Source: Thermodesulfobacteriota bacterium
GTDB lineage: Bacteria > Desulfobacterota > Deferrisomatia > Deferrisomatales > JACRMM01
Assembly (NCBI GenBank): GCA_040756475.1
Contig: JBFLZB010000014.1
Coordinates: forward strand, 1 to 44,048
Direction of reading: 5' to 3'
Length of the DNA stretch: 44,048 nt
Both the position numbers and the translations under genes were made by a program. This document shows, piece after piece, positions 14,031 through 24,335 of the stretch. The notes beneath the pieces were generated by a model. The model made no database searches and was not told the DNA's origin. It worked only from the letters and a program-made list of their open reading frames with translations. How positions within the stretch are numbered: the stretch's first letter is position 1; every line of letters begins with the position of its first letter.

Positions 14031-14155
14031 CTGGGCTGACCGTCGGGCGCGACGGGTGGGCCGTCTCCGGCGGACTCGCGTTCCGGCGGGCTTGCCCAGC
14101 CGGGCCGCTCTTCCGTATCCTTTCCCCCCCAACACCCCCCTCCGGAGGGCCATCC

Positions 14156-14347
14156 ATGGACTGCACCCAGAAAGCCAATGCCGCCAACTGCCCGTGCACC
14201 TACACGTCGTGCAGCAAGCGGGGCGCCTGCTGCCAGTGCGTGGCCTACCACCGGTCCCGCAACGAGATGGTGGCGTGCTACTTCACCCCGGAAGCCGAAC
14301 GCACCTATGACCGCTCCATGAGGGCCTTTCTCGCCCAGCACCGGTAG
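14156..14347 (+). CDS. Cysteine-rich DUF6485 protein
   Basis: This 63-residue protein has nine cysteines, in an order typical of DUF6485: [20 protein letters not shown] and an isolated cysteine in VACYF. The C-terminal segment [10 protein letters not shown] is also family-like. The cysteines probably bind a metal such as zinc or an iron-sulfur cluster, but no function has been shown for the family to my knowledge. There is no signal peptide. The ATG follows CGGAGGGCCATCC. The gene stands alone and is followed by hairpins that could terminate it. Confidence 0.8.
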
Positions 14348-14599: not shown

Positions 14600-17077
14600 A
14601 TGGTCCGCCGCTGGGTCCTCGCCGCCTTCTGCATGCTGGCTCCGGGGCTGTTGCCCGGGGGCGCGCTCGGCCAAGAGCGCGCCTTGGAGCTCCAGATGTC
14701 CGCGGAGCTGCTGCAGCGGCTCGTCTCCGAGTCCCGCACCCCCGAGAGCGAGGCGGCCCGCAGCGAGATCCTCAATCAGAACCCGGGGCTCCAGGACCTG
14801 GAGGTGGGGCGCCAGGGGGACCGGCTGACCCTGACCTTCGTGCCGCGGGAACACGGCGCTCCCCCGCGGCTCTACCTCGCCGGCACCCGGCGCGACTTCC
14901 TCCTCCTGGCCATGGCGGAGAACCCCGCCGACGTCTTCTCCCGCCTGAGCGCGCTGGACCCGGAGATCCGGTTCGCGCAGGCCCGGCGGTCCGCCCAGCA
15001 GCTGACCCTGACCCTGGGATACCGGGTGCGGAAGATCGAGGCCCCCCGGCCCCCGCAGCCGGCCGCCCGCGATCCGGGCCGCCGCAACGGAGGGGCGGGC
15101 GCGGCCGTCTACGAGGCCGCGCGGGGCAACGAGAAGGCCCTGGAGACCTACCTGGAGAGCTTCCCGGGGGGAAGCCACGCGGCCGCAGCGGAGCAGGAGC
15201 TGCAAGCCCTGCGGACCTCGCGCATGCAGGCGGAGTACGAGGCGGCGCTGGCATCCGGAGACCCGGAAGCCATCCAGGCCTTCATGGCCCTCTGGGGAAG
15301 CGGCACCCGGGTCGGCGGCACCGGCCGGGAGGTCCGCCTCCAGGTACAGGGGCCCACCGGCCCGTTCGCCTCCGCTCCGGCGCCTGCCGCCGCGAGCGCG
15401 CCGCCCGCTGCGCAGGCCCCCGCCCCCCCGGAACCCCCTGCGCCCTCCCTCCCCTCGGCCGAGGAGCGCGCCGAAGGGCCCTACCGCGCCGCCCTGGCCC
15501 AGGGCACCCTCGAGGCCCTGTCGCAGTTCGTGGCCGCCTTCCCCGACGCGCCCCAGCGGGCGGCCGCCGCGCAGCGCATCGAGGAGCTGCGGGAAGAGGC
15601 CGCTTTCCGGCTCGCCGTGGAGAAGAACACGGTGAACGCCTACCAAGGGTTTCTCGCCATCTTCCCCTCTTCCGGGCGGCGTGCAGAGGTGCAGGCGCGC
15701 ATCCAGGCGCTGGAAGCCGAGCACCAGAAGGCCGAGATCGAGCGCAAGGCGAGCGCCGCGGCGCAGAGCGCCCAACAGGCGCAACACGAGCAGCGCCGCC
15801 GTGCCTTCGACGAGGTTCGGCGCCTCGACGCTCCGGAGGGGTACCGCATCTTCGTGGCCACCTACCCGGGGACCCCGGAAGTGCAGCAGGTAGAAAAGCG
15901 CCTCAAGGAGCTGGAAGCCGACGACGAGGCCTTTGCCCGGGCGCGCTCCTCCGAGCAGGCCCTGGAGCGCTACCTCGCCGAGCGCCCTCAGGGCCGCCAC
16001 GCCCGGGAGGCGCGAGAGCGCGTCGCCCAACTCCAAAGCGCCCGCATGGACGCGGATTTCCTGGCAGCCCGGACAGCCGGGACCCCAGAGGCTTACCGGG
16101 CCTTCCTTTCCCGCTGGCCCAACGGCCCTCGAACCCAGGAGGCCAGGGCCGGGATCGAGGCAGCCGAGAGAGCCGCCGCCGAGAGGGCCGCCGCCCAGAG
16201 GGCGGCCGCCGCCAGCGCCGCGGCCGCGGCCCCCGACCCTGTCCAGCAACCCGTGCCCGAGCCAGCCCCGGAGCCCACCCCACCCCCGCCCCTGCGCCTT
16301 GCCGTGCGCCGGGTGGCGGCGGGACCGGAGCTGGCGGCGTCGCCCCAGGACGCCGCCTGGCACTCGGCCCAGGCGATCGAGATCCCGCTGCAGGGGCCCG
16401 CCGGCAACCCCCGGAAGGTTCGCCTGAGAGCGGTTCACGACGGAACGTCGGTCTACCTGCTGGCCGAGTGGGCCGACCCGAGCCGCGACGACGCCTACCG
16501 GCCCTGGCTCTGGGACCCGGCGGCCGCCAACTACCACCAGACCGGGCAGCTCGACGATGCCTTCTCGGTGCTCCTGTACCGGGAGGGGTCTGCGTCGAGC
16601 GCCTGCATGCTGGAGGGTCAGGAGGTGGACGCCGATCTGTGGCTCTGGCGCGCCGCATGGGGCGGCCTCTCGTCCCTGGCGGACGACGGCCGTCTGCGGG
16701 TGAGCCGCAACCGCATCCCCCAGGCCAACCCGTACCCGGTCCGCTCCGGACAGGGACAGGTCTGGATTCGCCAGGATTGGGACGAAGGCACGCCCGGGTG
16801 GTCCCTCTTCATCCCGGTGGGACGTAGCGCCGACACGGTCCCGAGCTACCGGGCCGCTCGCCCCAAGGGAAGCCGGGGAGACGTGGCGGCCTTGGGGTCG
16901 TGGAGCGACGGGCGGTGGACCGTGACCTTCCGCCGGGCCCTCGACACGGGGCACCCCGACGACGTCCCCCTGGTCCCCGGCGCCAGCCTGCTGGCGAGCT
17001 TTGCCGCCTACGACAAGGCCGACCGCGCCAACCACGCCTCCAGCCCCCCCGTCCACCTGGACGTACAGGGCCCCTGA
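14600..17077 (+). CDS. Secreted repeat protein with C-terminal ethylbenzene-dehydrogenase-type haem-binding domain
   Basis: This 825-residue protein has a signal peptide (residues 1-27, cleavage near ALGQ). Residues 165-535 contain several repeats of about 40 residues with the pattern AYxxFLxxYPxGxxxxxAxxRxxxL, forming a TPR-like helical stack interrupted by an Ala/Pro-rich linker. Residues 563-820 match the family of the gamma subunit of ethylbenzene dehydrogenase (EB_dh), which binds haem b in DMSO-reductase-type enzymes: VRLRAVHDGTSVYLLAEWAD, then DDAFSVLLY, then a terminal strand. No molybdenum or iron-sulfur partner genes are adjacent. It lies next to the cytochrome cluster, so an electron-carrier role on a protein scaffold is inferred. 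The ATG has only a weak upstream GAGAG. A MITE begins directly after the stop codon. Confidence 0.78.
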   Translation: MVRRWVLAAFCMLAPGLLPGGALGQERALELQMSAELLQRLVSESRTPESEAARSEILNQNPGLQDLEVGRQGDRLTLTFVPREHGAPPRLYLAGTRRDFLLLAMAENPADVFSRLSALDPEIRFAQARRSAQQLTLTLGYRVRKIEAPRPPQPAARDPGRRNGGAGAAVYEAARGNEKALETYLESFPGGSHAAAAEQELQALRTSRMQAEYEAALASGDPEAIQAFMALWGSGTRVGGTGREVRLQVQGPTGPFASAPAPAAASAPPAAQAPAPPEPPAPSLPSAEERAEGPYRAALAQGTLEALSQFVAAFPDAPQRAAAAQRIEELREEAAFRLAVEKNTVNAYQGFLAIFPSSGRRAEVQARIQALEAEHQKAEIERKASAAAQSAQQAQHEQRRRAFDEVRRLDAPEGYRIFVATYPGTPEVQQVEKRLKELEADDEAFARARSSEQALERYLAERPQGRHAREARERVAQLQSARMDADFLAARTAGTPEAYRAFLSRWPNGPRTQEARAGIEAAERAAAERAAAQRAAAASAAAAAPDPVQQPVPEPAPEPTPPPPLRLAVRRVAAGPELAASPQDAAWHSAQAIEIPLQGPAGNPRKVRLRAVHDGTSVYLLAEWADPSRDDAYRPWLWDPAAANYHQTGQLDDAFSVLLYREGSASSACMLEGQEVDADLWLWRAAWGGLSSLADDGRLRVSRNRIPQANPYPVRSGQGQVWIRQDWDEGTPGWSLFIPVGRSADTVPSYRAARPKGSRGDVAALGSWSDGRWTVTFRRALDTGHPDDVPLVPGASLLASFAAYDKADRANHASSPPVHLDVQGP

Positions 17078-17220
17078 GAGCCTGTGAAAGAATCGTCGCG
17101 AGCAGACCGGAGTGCGAGGCGCGCATGAGCGAACGACAAGACATATCAAGTAGATAGGCGAGGAGTGAGCGAGTGCGCAACGAAGCAATCCGGTCGCGCA
17201 GCAGATTATTTCACAGGCTC
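17078..17220. mobile_element. 143-bp MITE with 17-bp terminal inverted repeats
   Basis: The ends GAGCCTGTGAAAGAATC (17078-17094) and GATTATTTCACAGGCTC (17204-17220) are inverted repeats matching at 16 of 17 positions. The element is flanked by TGA on both sides (17075-17077 and 17221-17223), consistent with a 3-bp target duplication of TNA type, as known for several IS5-family subgroups. The left TGA is the stop codon of the haem-domain gene. The interior is less GC-rich than its surroundings and partly self-complementary. No transposase frame fits in it, so it would need a transposase in trans. Confidence 0.8.
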
Positions 17221-17259
17221 TGAGCCCTCCTCCCGGCGGGAAGCCGGATAGGCCCCCCC

Positions 17260-17360
17260 GTTCGTTCCGATCGCTATCGGTATCGGTATCGCAATCGGGG
17301 TTGATTTCGATTTCGATTTCGATCCCGATCCCGATCCCGATCCCGATACCGATGGCGATG
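17260..17360. repeat. Hexamer hairpin repeat, copy 2 (GATACC family)
   Basis: The left arm (about 17269-17300) is a GGTATC-type run and the right arm (about 17301-17355) runs GATTTC, GATCCC, GATACC, so the halves are inverted relative to each other. The right flank reads CGATGGGGACCGGGAG, which is the reverse complement of the left flank of copy 3. The gap from 17221 to 17772 holds this, an inverted-repeat relic, copy 3 and a terminator, with no credible gene. Confidence 0.75.
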
Positions 17361-17772: not shown

Positions 17773-18708
17773 TCAGCGGTTGGCCTGGAGCACCTCGAAG
17801 GGAATCCGAAGTCCCAGGGCCAGGGCCTCCTGGAGATCGACGAGGAAGTCCACCTTCTTTGCCTCGGCAATCGGGATGTTCGCCGCCCGCTCTCCCTTGA
17901 GGAGCCGTGCGGCCAGGGCGGCGCCGTCGTCGATCATGGCCTCGGCGTTGGCCGCCAGGGACAGGACGATCCCGCTTCCCTTCAGGCCGGGCGACTGGGT
18001 GACCAGGGGCCTGCCCAGGCGCTCCAGGTCGAACCCCAGCACCTGGGGATCGCACCCCCAGCCCACGTGGACGAACTGGGCGGGGGAGAAGGTCCGGGCC
18101 AGCTGGCCCGCGGATGCCCCGGACGCGTTGGCGACGATGAGCTGGAAGTCGCGGCTGCTGGCCACGGCCTGGACGTCTCGCAGTTGGGCCGCGCCGTCGT
18201 CGTCGTCGGAGCACTGGAGGAACCCCACCGTCTCCAGGGGTGCCGTCTTGTGCATGTTCTCGTAGAGCAGGGGCACGGAGGTCCGGCAGGAGAGCCCCGT
18301 GACGTTGTTCCCCATCCAGGCCGGCCGGTCCGGGCGCCCGCCGGTGGGGTCGTACCCCGCCAGGAGGACGATGGGCACCTTGTTGGTTGCCTCCGCCGCG
18401 TCCTGGGCGGCGCACGTGCCGAAGACCACGAGCACTCCCACGCCGTGGGCCAGGAGCTTCCGTACGCTGTTGATCCGGGAGACCTTGTCGCACGTGGGGG
18501 TGAGCACGTGCACCTCGGCGGACGAACCGTGCGCCTTGAGTCGCGCCGCAAAGGGGTCTCGCACCTCCCGGCCGAACCCGCTGCCCTTGAAGACCACGAG
18601 CCCGACGCTCGCCGACGCCCCCGCGTCCTTTGCCGGCAGGAAGGAAGCGCCCACCAGGGCGGCAGCCAGGAGGAGGACGGCACCTACGGCCTTCGAGACG
18701 GGAGACAT
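17773..18708 (-). CDS. Orphan periplasmic ABC-type substrate-binding protein with five cysteines
   Basis: The 311-residue product has a signal peptide (residues 1-31) and resembles the ABC_sub_bind group of periplasmic binding proteins, with a LivJ-like two-lobe fold (GLVVFKGSGFGREVRD at the start, LLAHGVGVLVVFGT, then a hinge and GLRIPFEVL at the end). No ATPase or permease gene is next to it. It has five mature cysteines (in PTCDK, GTCAAQ, LSCRTS, LQCSD and WGCDPQ), unusual for such proteins, but no CxxCH motif. It starts 4 nt after the porin stop and is the last gene of the cytochrome operon, so it may bind a ligand or redox partner of the conduit. That role is inference. Confidence 0.7.
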   Translation of the reverse strand: MSPVSKAVGAVLLLAAALVGASFLPAKDAGASASVGLVVFKGSGFGREVRDPFAARLKAHGSSAEVHVLTPTCDKVSRINSVRKLLAHGVGVLVVFGTCAAQDAAEATNKVPIVLLAGYDPTGGRPDRPAWMGNNVTGLSCRTSVPLLYENMHKTAPLETVGFLQCSDDDDGAAQLRDVQAVASSRDFQLIVANASGASAGQLARTFSPAQFVHVGWGCDPQVLGFDLERLGRPLVTQSPGLKGSGIVLSLAANAEAMIDDGAALAARLLKGERAANIPIAEAKKVDFLVDLQEALALGLRIPFEVLQANR

Positions 18709-18712
18709 GGCG

Positions 18713-20710
18713 TCACCACCTCTTGCTCAGGATGAGTCTGCCCTCGATCACGTCCTCGTCGTCCTCGGGAAAGGCTCCGTCCTGGCGATAGGCGCTGCGG
18801 GCGAAGCGGCTGGCGAGCCCCCACCCGCTCTGCCACTCATACCCCAGGTCTACCCCCAGGTCCCACTGGCGCGCGTCGAACTGCGAGAACGCCCCAAGAT
18901 CCCCGAAGCCCGCCGAGGACGTCTCGAAGGAGCCCTCCGCCCGCAGGATGGCGAGCTGGGCCCGCAGGGTCAGCCGCTCCACCGGTTCCCAATCGGCGAA
19001 CACCCCGTACTGGGTCCCCACCGCCTCGTAGGGGGCGCTGCGGTCCACCTGCAGGGTGACGCCCCCGGCGCTCGCGTCCACCGGGGCCTTGACCTCGTTG
19101 CGGAACCGGGCCACGAACCCTCCCACCGAGAAGGCGGCCACCGGGGTGACCGTGAGGCTCGCCTGGGCCACGGTGCGGTCCTCGTCCCGGTCGAAGTCGT
19201 CGTTCTCGGCGCGCACGTCGAGCCAACTGCCGTTGAAGTTGAGGAACCACCAGGGCTGTACGCTGGCCCACGCCTGCCACGTGCGGGCCTCGGTGGGCGC
19301 CGTGGGGAGCCCCTGCTCGTCGTCGGTCCGGAGCATGCCGTAGGAACCGCGCAGGGTCACGCCGCGCACGGGCCGGTAGTGGGCGCTCGCCTTCCACTCG
19401 GTCTTTCGGGAGTCGGCGGGAAGCCCGAAGCCGTCCCCCTGGGTGCGCACCTGCTCGGTGCGGACCGCGTCTCCCCGGAGGGTGAGGCGAGAGAGGGGCC
19501 GCACGCTCACCTGGGCCGCGTAGCGGTTTTCCTCGAGCTCGTACTCCACCGGGAGCCCGGCGCCGGCGCGCAGGGCCTGGGCGTCGGCGCTCCCCACGTC
19601 GTCGGCCTTGTGGGTGCGGCGAAACTTCAGCGCCGCGCTCAGCCAGGACCAGGGGGCCCACCCCAGGTCTGCGTCGCCCCGGTAGTAGTTGCGGGCCACG
19701 TCCACGTCCTCGTTGGTCACGCGGCCCATGTGGAGGCCGGCCGACGCGGTCACCTGCCCGGTCTGGGTGGTGCTCACCCGCACCCGGTGCTCCCAAGCCC
19801 GGGCGTCGGGGTAGGTGTTGTGGGCCGAGATCCCTCCCGGCGTCACTCCGGTGATGGGCCCGAACACGTGCTCCGGGTCCGCCTCGTCGTTGCGGAACTG
19901 GGTGAAGTTGTACGCATAGGACGCCATGCCGTAGCCCGCGTGGGCGTCGACACCCCCCTCGATCTCGGCCGTGGTGTGGTCGAGCTCGCGCTTGCGGGAG
20001 ATGTTGTGGCAGTTGGTGGTGCAGTTCTCGTCCAGGAAGGTCAGCTGGGAATCCCCCTCCACCGCGAACCGGCGGGCCGTGACCCGCACGTGGGCCGGGT
20101 ACACGCCCGGCCCCACCCGCAGGTTGACCGTCTGCTCGCTCACCTCCTTGCGGTAGTCTCCCCGGGGGTTTTGGTCGTCGGCGAAGAAGAGCGGCGGCGC
20201 CTCGCCCGTGGAGGGGGGCAGCGCCACGTTCTCCTCGTTGTGGGGAAACCCCTGGGAGGTAACGGAGCCCATCACCAGGTTCTTGTAGCGCACGTCCACC
20301 CGGGCCCCGTGGTCGGTTCCCCCCAGGTACTCGCCCGTGGCGTGGAGGCGGCCCCAACCCGGGTCGCGGTGGTAGAGGTCGAAGTACCCCTCCGGGTGCG
20401 ACTCCAGCTTCTCGTAGGGCCGCAGGGTCTGCCCGCCGCCGTCCTCCTGGCGGTACAGGTACCCGGCCCCCACGGCCGCCTCGGTCTCGGCGCGCTGCTT
20501 GTGACACTGGGTGCAGTCTCCCTTGATCTCCTGGGCCAGGAGCTCGTAGCGGTCGGTGGTCCCGTGGATCTCCACGAACTCCTCGACCGACAGGGTGCCC
20601 CGGTAGTCCGTCCGGACCTGGGCAGCCGCGGGGACCGCCCACAGGGCGAGGGCCAGGGCGAGGGCGGCGGGCACGAGCGCGGCCGGCGAGGGATGGCGAT
20701 GGCGTTTCAT
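18713..20710 (-). CDS. MtrB/PioB-like outer-membrane porin with two haem-type motifs
   Basis: The 665-residue product has a signal peptide (residues 1-30, cleavage near PAAAQ), a long series of alternating amphipathic strands and a C-terminal aromatic residue (KRW), as in outer-membrane barrels. It fits the MtrB/PioB porins that sheathe a periplasmic multihaem cytochrome. Unlike Shewanella MtrB, which has only a CxxC, the plug region here carries CTQCH (C66-H70) and CTTNCH (C230-H235), so it may itself carry c-type haem. It lies 33 bp downstream of the decahaem gene in the same operon. The ATG follows CAGGAGGACCCG. The haem motifs suggest electrons could pass through the barrel wall or plug; this is inferred. 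Confidence 0.8.
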   Translation of the reverse strand: MKRHRHPSPAALVPAALALALALWAVPAAAQVRTDYRGTLSVEEFVEIHGTTDRYELLAQEIKGDCTQCHKQRAETEAAVGAGYLYRQEDGGGQTLRPYEKLESHPEGYFDLYHRDPGWGRLHATGEYLGGTDHGARVDVRYKNLVMGSVTSQGFPHNEENVALPPSTGEAPPLFFADDQNPRGDYRKEVSEQTVNLRVGPGVYPAHVRVTARRFAVEGDSQLTFLDENCTTNCHNISRKRELDHTTAEIEGGVDAHAGYGMASYAYNFTQFRNDEADPEHVFGPITGVTPGGISAHNTYPDARAWEHRVRVSTTQTGQVTASAGLHMGRVTNEDVDVARNYYRGDADLGWAPWSWLSAALKFRRTHKADDVGSADAQALRAGAGLPVEYELEENRYAAQVSVRPLSRLTLRGDAVRTEQVRTQGDGFGLPADSRKTEWKASAHYRPVRGVTLRGSYGMLRTDDEQGLPTAPTEARTWQAWASVQPWWFLNFNGSWLDVRAENDDFDRDEDRTVAQASLTVTPVAAFSVGGFVARFRNEVKAPVDASAGGVTLQVDRSAPYEAVGTQYGVFADWEPVERLTLRAQLAILRAEGSFETSSAGFGDLGAFSQFDARQWDLGVDLGYEWQSGWGLASRFARSAYRQDGAFPEDDEDVIEGRLILSKRW

Positions 20711-20743
20711 CGGGTCCTCCTGACGATGGCCAAGGTCCGAGCA

Positions 20744-21718
20744 CTACTTGAGGAACGCGCTGCCCGGAAGGGTGGACTGGATATCCGTTCCGTGAATCTG
20801 GGAGTGGCATGTGGTGCACCGGGTGAAGAAGGCCGCCTTGCGGGCCGTGCCGTCCTGGGGAGAGGCGTGGCCCGCGTGGCACTGGAGGCAGAGGAACGGG
20901 TCCTGGAGCGTGAGCAGATCCCGGAAAGGCGACCCGTGGGGCCGATGACAGGTGGTGCAGCCGTTGGTCCCGCCGCCGTGCTCGAAGAGGGCGGGCGCCG
21001 CCTGGGCCGCGTGGCACTTGAAGCACAGGGTCTCGGCGTCGGTCGTTACCAGCATGGCGTCCGAGGCACTCCCGTGGGGCTCGTGGCAGGTGACGCAGGT
21101 GAGCTTTCCTTCCCGGATGGGGTGGCGGGAGAAGTAGGCCGTCTCGGCCTCCACGTCGGCGTGGCAGGCAAAGCACGTCTCTGCGATCTGCTTCCCGGAA
21201 GGCTTCTGCTCGATGCCCTGGTGGAGCTTGTGGCAGTCGGGGCAGCTGACCCCCGCCGCCGCGTGGGCCCCGCCGGCCCAGCCCTGGAGCGCGGTCTCGC
21301 TCATGGCGGTGTGGCACTTGAGGCATTGCAGGGAGCGGGCACCCGCGGGCAGCTCGGACAGCCTCACGAACTGGGTGGTGTCGCAGGCCTTGTCCTGGGC
21401 GGCGTTCTCGATGGCCAGGCTTCCCGCCCCGTGGCAGGTCTCGCAGTCGAAGAGCGGCAGGTTCCTGTCCTGGGAGAGCTGCTGGCCGTGGACGCTGCGC
21501 TCCAGGTACGCGGCGAGTCCGTCGTGCACGTGGCAGGCCGCCAGGCAGTTGGTCTGGCCCACGTAGTCGGCTTCGATCGGTCCCACCAGCATCCTCTCGT
21601 ACTCCTGCTGGGAGAAGATGGGGTGGCCCTGCCGCAAGGCGGCGCACGCCGCAAACAGGGGAACCGCCGCCCCGAGGACCAGGACCAGGCGAACGGTGGC
21701 GCGTCCTCGCTTCTTCAT
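20744..21718 (-). CDS. Decahaem c-type cytochrome lipoprotein, MtrA/DmsE-like
   Basis: This 324-residue protein has a lipobox LFAAC with the lipid-carrying cysteine at C25, so it is probably anchored in a membrane rather than soluble as Shewanella MtrA is. I count nine CxxCH motifs (CETCH, CLKCH, CPDCH, CFACH, CVTCH, CFKCH, CTTCH, CLQCH, CTTCH) and one CLAACH (C-x3-C-H), giving ten haem sites. Paired haem segments such as HEPHGS and HRPHGS are typical of the DmsE/MtrA group. I use the ATG at 21718, before MKKRGR; a longer in-frame extension upstream has no ribosome binding site. The gene is the first of the operon and is divergent from the 14-haem gene. Confidence 0.9.
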   Translation of the reverse strand: MKKRGRATVRLVLVLGAAVPLFAACAALRQGHPIFSQQEYERMLVGPIEADYVGQTNCLAACHVHDGLAAYLERSVHGQQLSQDRNLPLFDCETCHGAGSLAIENAAQDKACDTTQFVRLSELPAGARSLQCLKCHTAMSETALQGWAGGAHAAAGVSCPDCHKLHQGIEQKPSGKQIAETCFACHADVEAETAYFSRHPIREGKLTCVTCHEPHGSASDAMLVTTDAETLCFKCHAAQAAPALFEHGGGTNGCTTCHRPHGSPFRDLLTLQDPFLCLQCHAGHASPQDGTARKAAFFTRCTTCHSQIHGTDIQSTLPGSAFLK

Positions 21719-22016
21719 CTCATCGCTCCTCTGGGAGAGGGAGAAGGCCGGCGTCTGCCGTGGGCCCCGCGGGGCCGCCCCGATGCCCGACGGCTCAGTG
21801 AGCATCTATCGGCGAAGACGCTGCCGAGGTTTAGGCGAGAACGCACGAAAGGTGAAACATCTCCCCGGGAGCACAATGTCTTCCCGATCATCTCAAGTTT
21901 GCGCAGCGGATATCCGATCGGTTGTCCCCGTGGGTCGCGGTGCCGGACCCCGGTCTGGCCCCCTTTCGGCCCCGCCCACGGCTGGCGACGCAGCAGACCT
22001 GCCCGAGGAGGAAGAG
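21719..22016. promoter_or_regulatory. Divergent promoter region of the two cytochrome transcription units
   Basis: Both cytochrome units must be driven from this 298-bp region. The most visible element is the palindrome CGGATATCCG (21907-21916), followed by ATCGG, which could be an operator. I could not find convincing -35/-10 or -24/-12 boxes by eye. Confidence 0.4.
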
Positions 22017-24335
22017 ATGAAGAGCGCACAGTGGATGACGCCGGCGATCCTTCTCGCCGGCCTGGCCCTTCTGGCCACCGGCTGCGGAGAAGGCGGCAAG
22101 GAGTCGCCCCACCGGGGCCGCACCGCCGCCGAGGCGGCGGGCCGCGAGCTGGGCTCCGACGCCAGCGGCGCCGCGTACGTGGGGGCGGACCTGTGCCTGG
22201 GGTGCCACCTGGACGAGGCGGCCGCGTGCAGCTCGTGCCACCCGCAGCACCAGCTTTGGCCGGAGGCTGTCGCAGCCTATCTGGAGAGCCGGCACGCCCA
22301 CGGCGCCGGGCGCATGGACGCGTCTGCCGAGACGGCGAGCTGCCGGCTCGCCTGCCACGACCCCGTGGGCGACGGAGCCTTCCTCGAAGACCGGCCCGAC
22401 CTGGAAGGCCCCGTGCCCGCCGCGGGGCTCGCCGCCGTGGGTTGCGAAGCCTGCCACGGGGGCGGCGCCGGCCATTTCGGCCGGGGGCCCCTGCCCGACC
22501 CGAGGCCCGGCGCCGGCGTGTGCGGGCGCTGCCACGACAACCTCTCGGGGCTCCACGCGGCGGACCACCCGGAGGGTATGCGGATCTGGGGCGCCTACCA
22601 GGCCTCGCCCCACGCCCGGTCCCTGAACCCCGAGCGGCACAACGTGCCGGGCTCCGCCTCCCTGGTGCAGGCCCGGTGCGCCCGGTGCCACACGGACGAG
22701 GGGACCAAGCTCTACCGCAACGTGGGAGGCACGTTCCCCGAGGCCGCCACGCTCGCAGCGGCGCCGCCGCTGGAGAGCCCCAGCGTCATCCAGTGCCGCA
22801 CCTGCCACGACGCCCACAATCCCGGGCAGCTCCTGGTGGACGCGGAGGAGAACCAGGCGGGGGCCGTGGTGGCCTCGGCCGAGTACCGCACGTGCAGCCA
22901 CTGCCACCCGCCGGAAAACGCCAACTCGGGTGAGATGAACCCCGGCATGTGGTCGGGCGGCACCGTCGGGGTGGGCACCTTCAACCCCGACCGCATCATC
23001 TACGACACCCACTTCGACGACCCGGCCACGCCCGAGATCGAGGGCTACAACCTGAAGGCCGCGAGCGCGCGCACCTGCCGGGACTGCCACGACGTACACG
23101 CCGCAGACCCCACCATCCACCGTCAGTGGGCCCGGTCGGGGCACGGGGGAAGGATCGGAGCCGTCAAGGCCGCAGCAAGGGCCGAAAACCAGGGCGAAGG
23201 CGCCGACGTGGCCATTCGGACCGCCGGGCTCTCCAAGGCGAACGCGTACCCCTGGACGGGCTATCCCTGGAAGGACGGGGTGGGCCCATGGGCCATGGAC
23301 CTCAAGCCCTGCCAGCGCTGCCACACGGCCACGGGCTTTGCGAACTTCGCGACGGATCCGTCGCGCTACTCGGCAGCCCGGAACGATTATTCCTACTTGG
23401 CGGGCGCCCAGCAGGAGATCCTGTACTGCTGGGGATGCCACTCCGACAGCGCGGGGGGCCTGCGCACCCCCGGCCCGATCCCGTTCACCTATCCGGGAGT
23501 GCCTGCGGGCGCCTATCCGGACGTGGCCGGCTCCAACCTGTGCCTGGGCTGCCACACGGGCCTGGCGAGCGGCCGCGCCATTCGAGCCCAGACCGGGTTG
23601 GGCAACCTAGGGGCCTCCGGTGTCCTGCCCCACTACCTGCTCGCGGGCGGGGTGCTCTTCGGGGGCACGGGCGAGACGCCCGGGCTCGGCTACGAGTTCC
23701 CCGGAAGGGAGTACGTGCTGCCCGCCACGGAAAGGCACTACCAGATCGGGCGGCCCGGCCTGGTCGACACGCCCACCGGCAGCCAGGGCCCGTGCGTGGG
23801 CTGCCACTTCAGCTCGGCGGAGCCCCACACCCTGGCCGCCGCGCGCCACGATCCGGTCACCGGCGCCGTCTTCGCGATCGAGAGCCAGGCGTGCGCGGCC
23901 TGCCACCAGGTGGTGCCCGGGCTCGGGGACTTCCGCCTCACGCCCCAGATCCTCGAGGGCAAGCGCGCCGGCTTCCTGGCGGCCGTGGCCGTCCTGAAGG
24001 AGCTCCTGTGGAGCCAGGGGTACGGAGTCCAGGACGACTGGCCCTACTTCACCCGGACGAACTGGGGAGAAGACGACGAGGCGGGCCGCAACACCCTGGG
24101 CGCAGCCTTCAACTTCGCGCTCCTGAGCCACGAGCCCGGCGCCTACGTGCACAACCCGTACTACGCAAAGCAGCTGCTCTACGACACCATCGACTGGGTA
24201 GCCAACGGCGCCCTGGACCACGGCGTCTTGAGCGCGATCCAGACCCTGCCGGCGAGCCCCAGCTTCTCCGGGAGCTTTGCCGAGCACTACAGCCCGGCGG
24301 CGGCCATCCAGTACCTGGTGGACCTGGGCCGGTAG
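22017..24335 (+). CDS. 14-haem c-type cytochrome lipoprotein
   Basis: This 772-residue lipoprotein has a lipobox LATGC (C23). I count thirteen CxxCH motifs (CLGCH, CSSCH, CEACH, CGRCH, CARCH, CRTCH, CSHCH, CRDCH, CQRCH, CWGCH, CLGCH, CVGCH, CAACH) and one C-x3-C-H (CRLACH), so fourteen probable haems. The haem spacing is loose, as in surface cytochromes such as the Omc proteins. The ATG follows GAGGAGGAAGAG. It is divergent from the decahaem-porin operon and probably forms the outer or inner electron partner of the conduit; the side of the membrane cannot be told from sequence. The C-terminal 120 residues have no haem and are not recognised. Confidence 0.88.
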   Translation: MKSAQWMTPAILLAGLALLATGCGEGGKESPHRGRTAAEAAGRELGSDASGAAYVGADLCLGCHLDEAAACSSCHPQHQLWPEAVAAYLESRHAHGAGRMDASAETASCRLACHDPVGDGAFLEDRPDLEGPVPAAGLAAVGCEACHGGGAGHFGRGPLPDPRPGAGVCGRCHDNLSGLHAADHPEGMRIWGAYQASPHARSLNPERHNVPGSASLVQARCARCHTDEGTKLYRNVGGTFPEAATLAAAPPLESPSVIQCRTCHDAHNPGQLLVDAEENQAGAVVASAEYRTCSHCHPPENANSGEMNPGMWSGGTVGVGTFNPDRIIYDTHFDDPATPEIEGYNLKAASARTCRDCHDVHAADPTIHRQWARSGHGGRIGAVKAAARAENQGEGADVAIRTAGLSKANAYPWTGYPWKDGVGPWAMDLKPCQRCHTATGFANFATDPSRYSAARNDYSYLAGAQQEILYCWGCHSDSAGGLRTPGPIPFTYPGVPAGAYPDVAGSNLCLGCHTGLASGRAIRAQTGLGNLGASGVLPHYLLAGGVLFGGTGETPGLGYEFPGREYVLPATERHYQIGRPGLVDTPTGSQGPCVGCHFSSAEPHTLAAARHDPVTGAVFAIESQACAACHQVVPGLGDFRLTPQILEGKRAGFLAAVAVLKELLWSQGYGVQDDWPYFTRTNWGEDDEAGRNTLGAAFNFALLSHEPGAYVHNPYYAKQLLYDTIDWVANGALDHGVLSAIQTLPASPSFSGSFAEHYSPAAAIQYLVDLGR

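Follow-up and report, generated by a model that had tools for sequence, protein, structure and literature searches.

The stretch of DNA analysed here (the window) comprises positions 1 to 44,048 of contig JBFLZB010000014.1 of a Thermodesulfobacteriota bacterium (assembly GCA_040756475.1), and contains a putative porin-cytochrome locus. Three genes on the minus strand form an operon in the order decahaem lipoprotein of the MtrA/DmsE/OmcK type (324 amino acids; 20744-21718, with the ATG at 21718 taken as the start), MtrB-like outer-membrane porin (665 amino acids; 18713-20710) and periplasmic binding protein (311 amino acids; 17773-18708), with intergenic gaps of 33 and 4 bp and a strong hairpin 3' of the binding-protein gene. 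Divergent from this operon, on the plus strand, lies the gene of a 14-haem lipoprotein (772 amino acids; 22017-24335). G+C content at third codon positions is 0.91-0.94. The original prediction had described an operon of decahaem lipoprotein, porin with two haem-type motifs and binding protein with a divergent 14-haem lipoprotein, and every one of these parts was seen; the span that it gave is accurate, but the starts of the cytochrome genes lie inside the longest open reading frames.

The decahaem protein possesses nine CXXCH motifs and one CX3CH motif, the latter (CLAACH) belonging to the first haem. It scores 221 bits against TIGR03508 (DmsE family; cut-off 192.2) and 209.8 bits, below the curated cut-off of 325, against NF041028, the family of GSU2203, which is OmcK (PMC4070692). 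A search of PDB sequences matched it to chain A (MtrA) of the Mtr complex 6r2q with an E-value of 1.3e-36; the PDB list names this chain cystathionine beta-synthase, apparently a mislabelled entry. A scan of the named genomes with the decahaem alignment yielded 80 related loci in Geobacterales, Desulfuromonadales and Nitrospirota, while the same scan with the porin as a single protein found no relatives. The operon is conserved in 81 genomes of two phyla, as the original prediction had proposed to check by gene order in related genomes. All 80 related decahaem proteins share the pattern of nine CXXCH motifs and one CX3CH at the first haem, which is a signature of the family; OmcK-type outliers such as that of locus L071 have ten CXXCH motifs. 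In the decahaem tree the window groups with three sequences from metagenome-assembled genomes (bin47, bin582 and bin676; support 100/99), on a long branch of its own. Lipidation is predicted for the window's decahaem protein from its lipobox (LFAA|C25; cysteine codon at 21644-21646, minus strand). A lipobox cysteine is present in 81 of 81 decahaem proteins of the family, 74 of which match the strict lipobox pattern, so that a predicted lipid anchor is the rule in this family and not the exception; the earlier statement that known MtrA-type subunits are all soluble is not supported.

The porin passes the gathering cut-off of PF11854 (26.9 bits against 23). Its best named family is NF041027, the "GSU2204 family CXXCH-containing (seleno)protein", which it matches at 64.9 bits, below the curated cut-off of 350; TIGR03509, matched by 13 of 56 related porins, is not listed for it. 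GSU2204 is taken to be OmcL from our own reading of PMC4070692 and PMC10553843; a text match to OmcL in PMC12977616 proved to be an unrelated acronym. Profile-profile comparison (hhalign) of 56 porins of the window's family with 14 OmcL-family porins gave a probability of 100 and an E-value of 5e-51. An AlphaFold2 model built from the 56 sequences has a mean pLDDT (predicted local distance difference test) of 87.6, and 26 barrel strands were counted in its DSSP string. Its best fold match in the PDB is MtrB (6r2q_B; Z 24.4, root-mean-square deviation 3.5 over 554 residues), followed by a match with Z 16.9; phmmer found no match of the porin among PDB sequences, and the link to MtrB in the PDB came from the fold search only. 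The porin thus models as an MtrB-like 26-strand barrel. In the 26-strand barrel of MtrB the periplasmic turns are tight and the extracellular loops long (PMC7198977), and the loops of the model were assigned to the two sides by the same rule.

The mature porin has only four cysteines, all of them within two haem-type motifs. The original prediction had reported both; the second, however, is a CX3CH and not a CXXCH. The first motif, CTQCH (residues 66-70, mature 36-40; 20501-20515, minus strand), lies in a periplasmic tail at the N terminus, immediately ahead of strand 1, and the second, CTTNCH (residues 230-235, mature 200-205; 20006-20023, minus strand), lies in the extracellular loop that joins strands 7 and 8 in the AlphaFold2 topology. 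Among 20,000 shuffles of the mature porin, a CX2CH arose ten times, a CX3CH nine times and the two together never.

The second motif has a counterpart in other porins. The hhalign comparison sets CTTNCH on the CXXCH of the OmcL family, the spacing being CX3CH in one and CX2CH in the other, and this CXXCH is invariant in all 14 OmcL-family porins aligned. The word "selenoprotein" in the name of NF041027 was considered as a case against haem at CXXCH and was set aside, since in the one TGA-bearing member examined this codon lies a long way from the motif. That member, the OmcL-family porin of L166 (G056 C87), has an in-frame TGA about 300 codons past its CTPCH, which may be a selenocysteine site or a frameshift. 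The motif-2 site is kept as C-x(2-5)-C-H in 20 of 77 related porins, comprising four of four in the window's clade and 16 of 17 in a Desulfuromonadales clade. Its spacing varies between CX2, CX3 and in one case CX5, while the CH ending is constant, as in c-type cytochromes. Conservation in relatives, which the original prediction had made its touchstone, is therefore found for CTTNCH in part of the family, including the whole of the window's clade. Because OmcL porins have CXXCH at the same place, the motif is probably ancestral; it was then probably lost on two or more occasions, and once more, recently, in L143. None of the 19 aligned motif-2 porins lacks the histidine that follows the second cysteine. 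In 18 of them the adjacent loop has the sequence HNxxH or xNxxH and so retains its second histidine, which is found in only eight of the 57 other porins (Fisher p = 2e-10, kinship ignored). The first histidine of this loop is invariant at the matching place in the 14 OmcL-family porins and is kept in the window as His157 (20240-20242, minus strand), a candidate distal ligand for a haem at motif 2.

The chief alternative is that the locus encodes an ordinary OmcKL or MtrAB conduit in which the porin cysteines hold no haem, motif 2 being a structural or metal-binding site or a relic on its way out and motif 1 a thiol or disulfide site. Several observations weigh on its side and against a haem-bearing barrel. 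Motif 2 occurs in no Geobacterales or Nitrospirota porin of the window's family and is missing from 57 of 77 porins whose operons are intact; having been lost at least twice, in whole clades, it is not essential to the conduit. The association with the second loop histidine is uncorrected for kinship, and the window itself, whose loop reads HNEEN, is the sole exception among the 19 motif-2 porins, lacking one candidate distal histidine. Because Asn161 stands in place of this second histidine, the motif-2 site of the window may use another ligand or be a weaker site. The AlphaFold2 model holds no haem and no partner protein. As for motif 1, CTQCH is unique to the window genome among the aligned porins, no other of which has an N-terminal CxxC, so that CTQCH fails the conservation check proposed in the original prediction; it sits in an insertion without counterpart in the window's three closest relatives, in a region with pLDDT below 50. 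The alignment register with MtrB (43 against 48) puts it near MtrB C42xxC45. Iron reduction is lost in the C42A variant of MtrB but not in the C45A variant, and the N-terminal CxxC of MtrB is not visible in the crystal structure (PMC12175506); C42 is thus needed without haem at about the place of motif 1, and we infer that motif 1 may be the equivalent of this CxxC. On the other side, retention of the histidine after the second cysteine in 19 of 19 motif-2 porins and 14 of 14 OmcL porins, despite variable spacing, fits haem attachment better than a fixed CxxC site, and motif-2 porins have hardly any other cysteine. Moreover, haem on an exported CXXCH is the default expectation in a cytochrome-rich cell, and the window genome encodes ResB cytochrome-maturation proteins as well as many multihaem cytochromes. 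On balance, a porin free of haem appears unlikely, though it deserves serious weight; a covalent haem at motif 2 is somewhat favoured, and one at motif 1 is a rather doubtful possibility.

The third gene of the operon encodes a protein that scores 50.8 bits against PF04392 (cut-off 25.9), with profile matches to the solved binding proteins 3lkv, 6hni and 3lft. The original prediction had called it an orphan, but it is a conserved partner of the conduit: a PF04392 gene directly follows the porin gene in 63 of the 71 related clusters with enough downstream sequence. Among the 56 clusters with room for a further gene, the next gene encodes a chemoreceptor or kinase in 20 and a response regulator in 29. 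Cluster 7 proteins, encoded after the binding-protein gene, were at first taken for histidine kinases, but Pfam shows mainly chemoreceptors: 23 of the 26 proteins of the chemoreceptor/kinase clusters (7 and 27) have a methyl-accepting chemotaxis protein signalling domain and three are histidine kinases. Signalling proteins lie downstream of the binding protein in three Nitrospirota loci (L163:11717-13744, L116 and L142) and are probably these three histidine kinases; that of L163 has a haem-type motif, CTGCH, in its N-terminal, probably periplasmic region.

These neighbours bear on the possibility that the binding protein in fact serves nutrient uptake, of the tryptophan or aromatic type, and shares a transcript with the conduit by chance. 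The PF04392/TrpX-type family and the solved relatives do bind ligands. However, no permease or ATPase gene is present in the window operon or beside the binding-protein gene, and the binding protein follows the porin in two phyla with a signalling gene next in 49 of 56 cases. An ATP-binding cassette (ABC) ATPase does precede the decahaem gene in Geobacterales loci, and lies further upstream in three Desulfuromonadales loci, but none was seen in the loci of the window's clade or of the Nitrospirota. An uptake role is accordingly improbable. Given the conserved signalling neighbours and the lack of transporter genes in the window operon, a sensor role is likelier than uptake, and the binding protein is tentatively regarded as a periplasmic ligand sensor and not as part of a transporter. 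It counts against such a role in this organism that no chemoreceptor or regulator gene adjoins the binding-protein gene in the window; the window genome has about twenty chemoreceptor genes.

The 14-haem lipoprotein has 13 CXXCH motifs and one CX3CH, a lipobox (LATG|C23) and a match of 55.9 bits to PF22113, an MtrC/MtrF-like domain. The sole strong homologue near the 80 related clusters is in L086 (bin47), where it comes after the decahaem, porin, binding-protein and chemoreceptor genes. Because this homologue sits in a sister conduit cluster, the 14-haem lipoprotein is the probable surface terminal of the conduit.

Together, the MtrA/OmcK-type decahaem protein, the MtrB fold and the profile homology to OmcL give good support to the earlier reading of the locus as a porin-cytochrome system, which very probably serves as an electron conduit across the outer membrane. 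The nearest studied relatives, in Geobacter and Desulfuromonas, are mainly reducers, which counts against a conduit that runs inward. An inward route, with Fe(II), electrodes or partner cells donating the electrons in the manner of PioAB or MtoAB, has in its favour that a like porin and decahaem protein serve iron oxidation in PioAB (PMC6831781), that Nitrospirota are among the relatives and that sequence leaves the direction unset, but it is a poor prospect in view of the rise of GSU2203 and GSU2204 transcripts on iron oxides (PMC4070692).

The reading preferred here, which is reasonably probable as a whole, is a porin conduit plugged by a lipid-anchored decahaem protein, with a further haem probably bound at the outer mouth and a binding protein that acts as sensor. 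The lipid of the decahaem protein would fix it to the inner leaflet of the outer membrane, the protein itself would plug the 26-strand barrel, and electrons would pass from the periplasm through the decahaem protein to its last haem and on to the divergently encoded 14-haem surface lipoprotein, this direction being an inferred one. A single haem, covalently bound to motif 2, would sit where the barrel opens to the outside and act as a relay between the last haem of the decahaem protein and the 14-haem protein. Motif 1 may either bind another haem on the periplasmic side of the barrel or serve as a thiol site like the CxxC of MtrB. The binding protein would sense a periplasmic ligand and, in the relatives, feed a chemoreceptor or signalling protein. 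The fullest version of this reading, a conduit family with a sensor of its own (binding protein together with chemoreceptor or receiver), in part of which the MtrB-type barrel would be a cytochrome in its own right through a haem covalently bound near its outer opening, and to which the window adds a haem at the periplasmic mouth so that the wire is extended at both ends, seems improbable.

MtrB-type barrels are usually pictured as insulating sheaths and nothing more. A conserved CX2-5CH in one extracellular loop, common to OmcL and lost in sister clades, offers a natural test of a sheath that carries electrons. The conserved grouping of conduit, binding-protein and chemoreceptor or receiver genes in one operon hints that cells may couple the route to a given extracellular acceptor to taxis or regulation.

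The conduit lies within a segment that is not shared by the whole family. In G001, a genome of the same family, the genes that flank the segment 14348-24395 lie about 110 bp apart, and this segment was therefore gained in the line of the window or lost in that of G001. Eleven genomes of the same order contained neither the decahaem protein (at an E-value of 1e-20) nor the porin, and this wide absence from the order favours gain of the roughly 10-kb segment. Mis-binning of the contig was ruled out: the Tex gene nearby shares 73-74% identity with those of same-order genomes, with Tex-ferritin-kinase synteny, and a repeat of about 150 bp in the segment recurs on other contigs of the window genome at 79-99% identity. 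Besides the conduit and the 14-haem gene, the segment contains a gene (14600-17077, plus strand) for an exported protein of 825 amino acids whose long middle part is repetitive and whose C terminus forms a haem-b domain of the ethylbenzene-dehydrogenase/dimethyl sulfoxide-reductase type (PF09459, 71 bits). No homologue of this protein was found beside the 80 related conduit clusters or at the matching site of G001, and any functional link to the conduit is hypothetical. At the left edge of the segment, a small cysteine-rich protein (14138-14347) is 80% identical to one beside the Tex gene in G001. An element of about 145 bp (17077-17221) with inverted ends AGAGCCTGTGAAA resembles a miniature inverted-repeat transposable element and has about eleven further near-full copies on other contigs (79-99% identity). 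Between two operons, a short array of the six-base units CGATCC/CGATTT (17295-17353) yields long spurious open reading frames.

Comparison with known systems places the window's conduit closest to OmcK-OmcL. The Ext and OmbB-OmaB-OmcB systems of G. sulfurreducens likewise combine a porin, a periplasmic cytochrome and an outer lipoprotein (PMC6148476), but according to literature descriptions their cytochromes and porins are of other families. MtrAB, DmsEF and PioAB of Shewanella and Rhodopseudomonas share with the window a decahaem protein of the DmsE/MtrA type, the 26-strand MtrB fold and the presumed plug-in-barrel assembly; the window differs in the predicted lipid anchor of its decahaem protein, in the haem-type motifs of its porin and in the binding protein of its operon. 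With its lipobox and two porin motifs, it falls outside MtrAB proper, in which the decahaem protein has no lipid anchor and the porin no haem motif. The earlier statement that the porins of known conduits are free of haem is not supported, in view of the invariant CXXCH in 14 of 14 OmcL-family porins and of GM18_3465 of Geobacter sp. M18, a porin-like protein for which ten haem motifs in loops were predicted in 2014 (PMC4245776). GM18_3465, compared by description only, shares with the window the idea of a haem-bearing outer-membrane porin and differs in having ten loop motifs where one is conserved here. Cyc2 unites cytochrome and porin in one chain and has no separate decahaem plug. By description, both it and the window's porin have a haem-type site in the porin chain, haem being attached to the porin polypeptide of Cyc2 (PMC8406198), and the decahaem plug of the window sets the two apart. 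Haem-type motifs in conduit porins (OmcL and GM18_3465) and a lipobox in OmcK-type decahaem proteins (that of L071) thus have precedents. The open-access papers searched yielded no report of a conserved family of conduit operons that include genes for a binding protein and for a chemoreceptor or receiver, nor of a porin motif assigned to an outward-facing loop in a barrel of the MtrB type, nor of a porin with motifs on both faces.

OmcK-OmcL is a porin:cytochrome conduit of Geobacter and Hot-Seep-1 (PMC10553843). As in the window, a decahaem lipoprotein gene adjoins that of an MtrB-like porin with CXXCH at the homologous extracellular-loop site; the window differs in the CX3CH of its first haem, in its third gene, encoding a PF04392 binding protein, and in the extra N-terminal CTQCH of its porin. 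In Geobacter sp. H2geo (G072), an OmcK-OmcL pair (L071:4909-8166) and a member of the window's family lie on one contig, about 65 kb apart. Since profile homology is clear and both curated cut-offs are missed, the sequences identify the window's system as a divergent sister, and not a member, of the OmcK-OmcL system (GSU2203-GSU2204) of Geobacter sulfurreducens.

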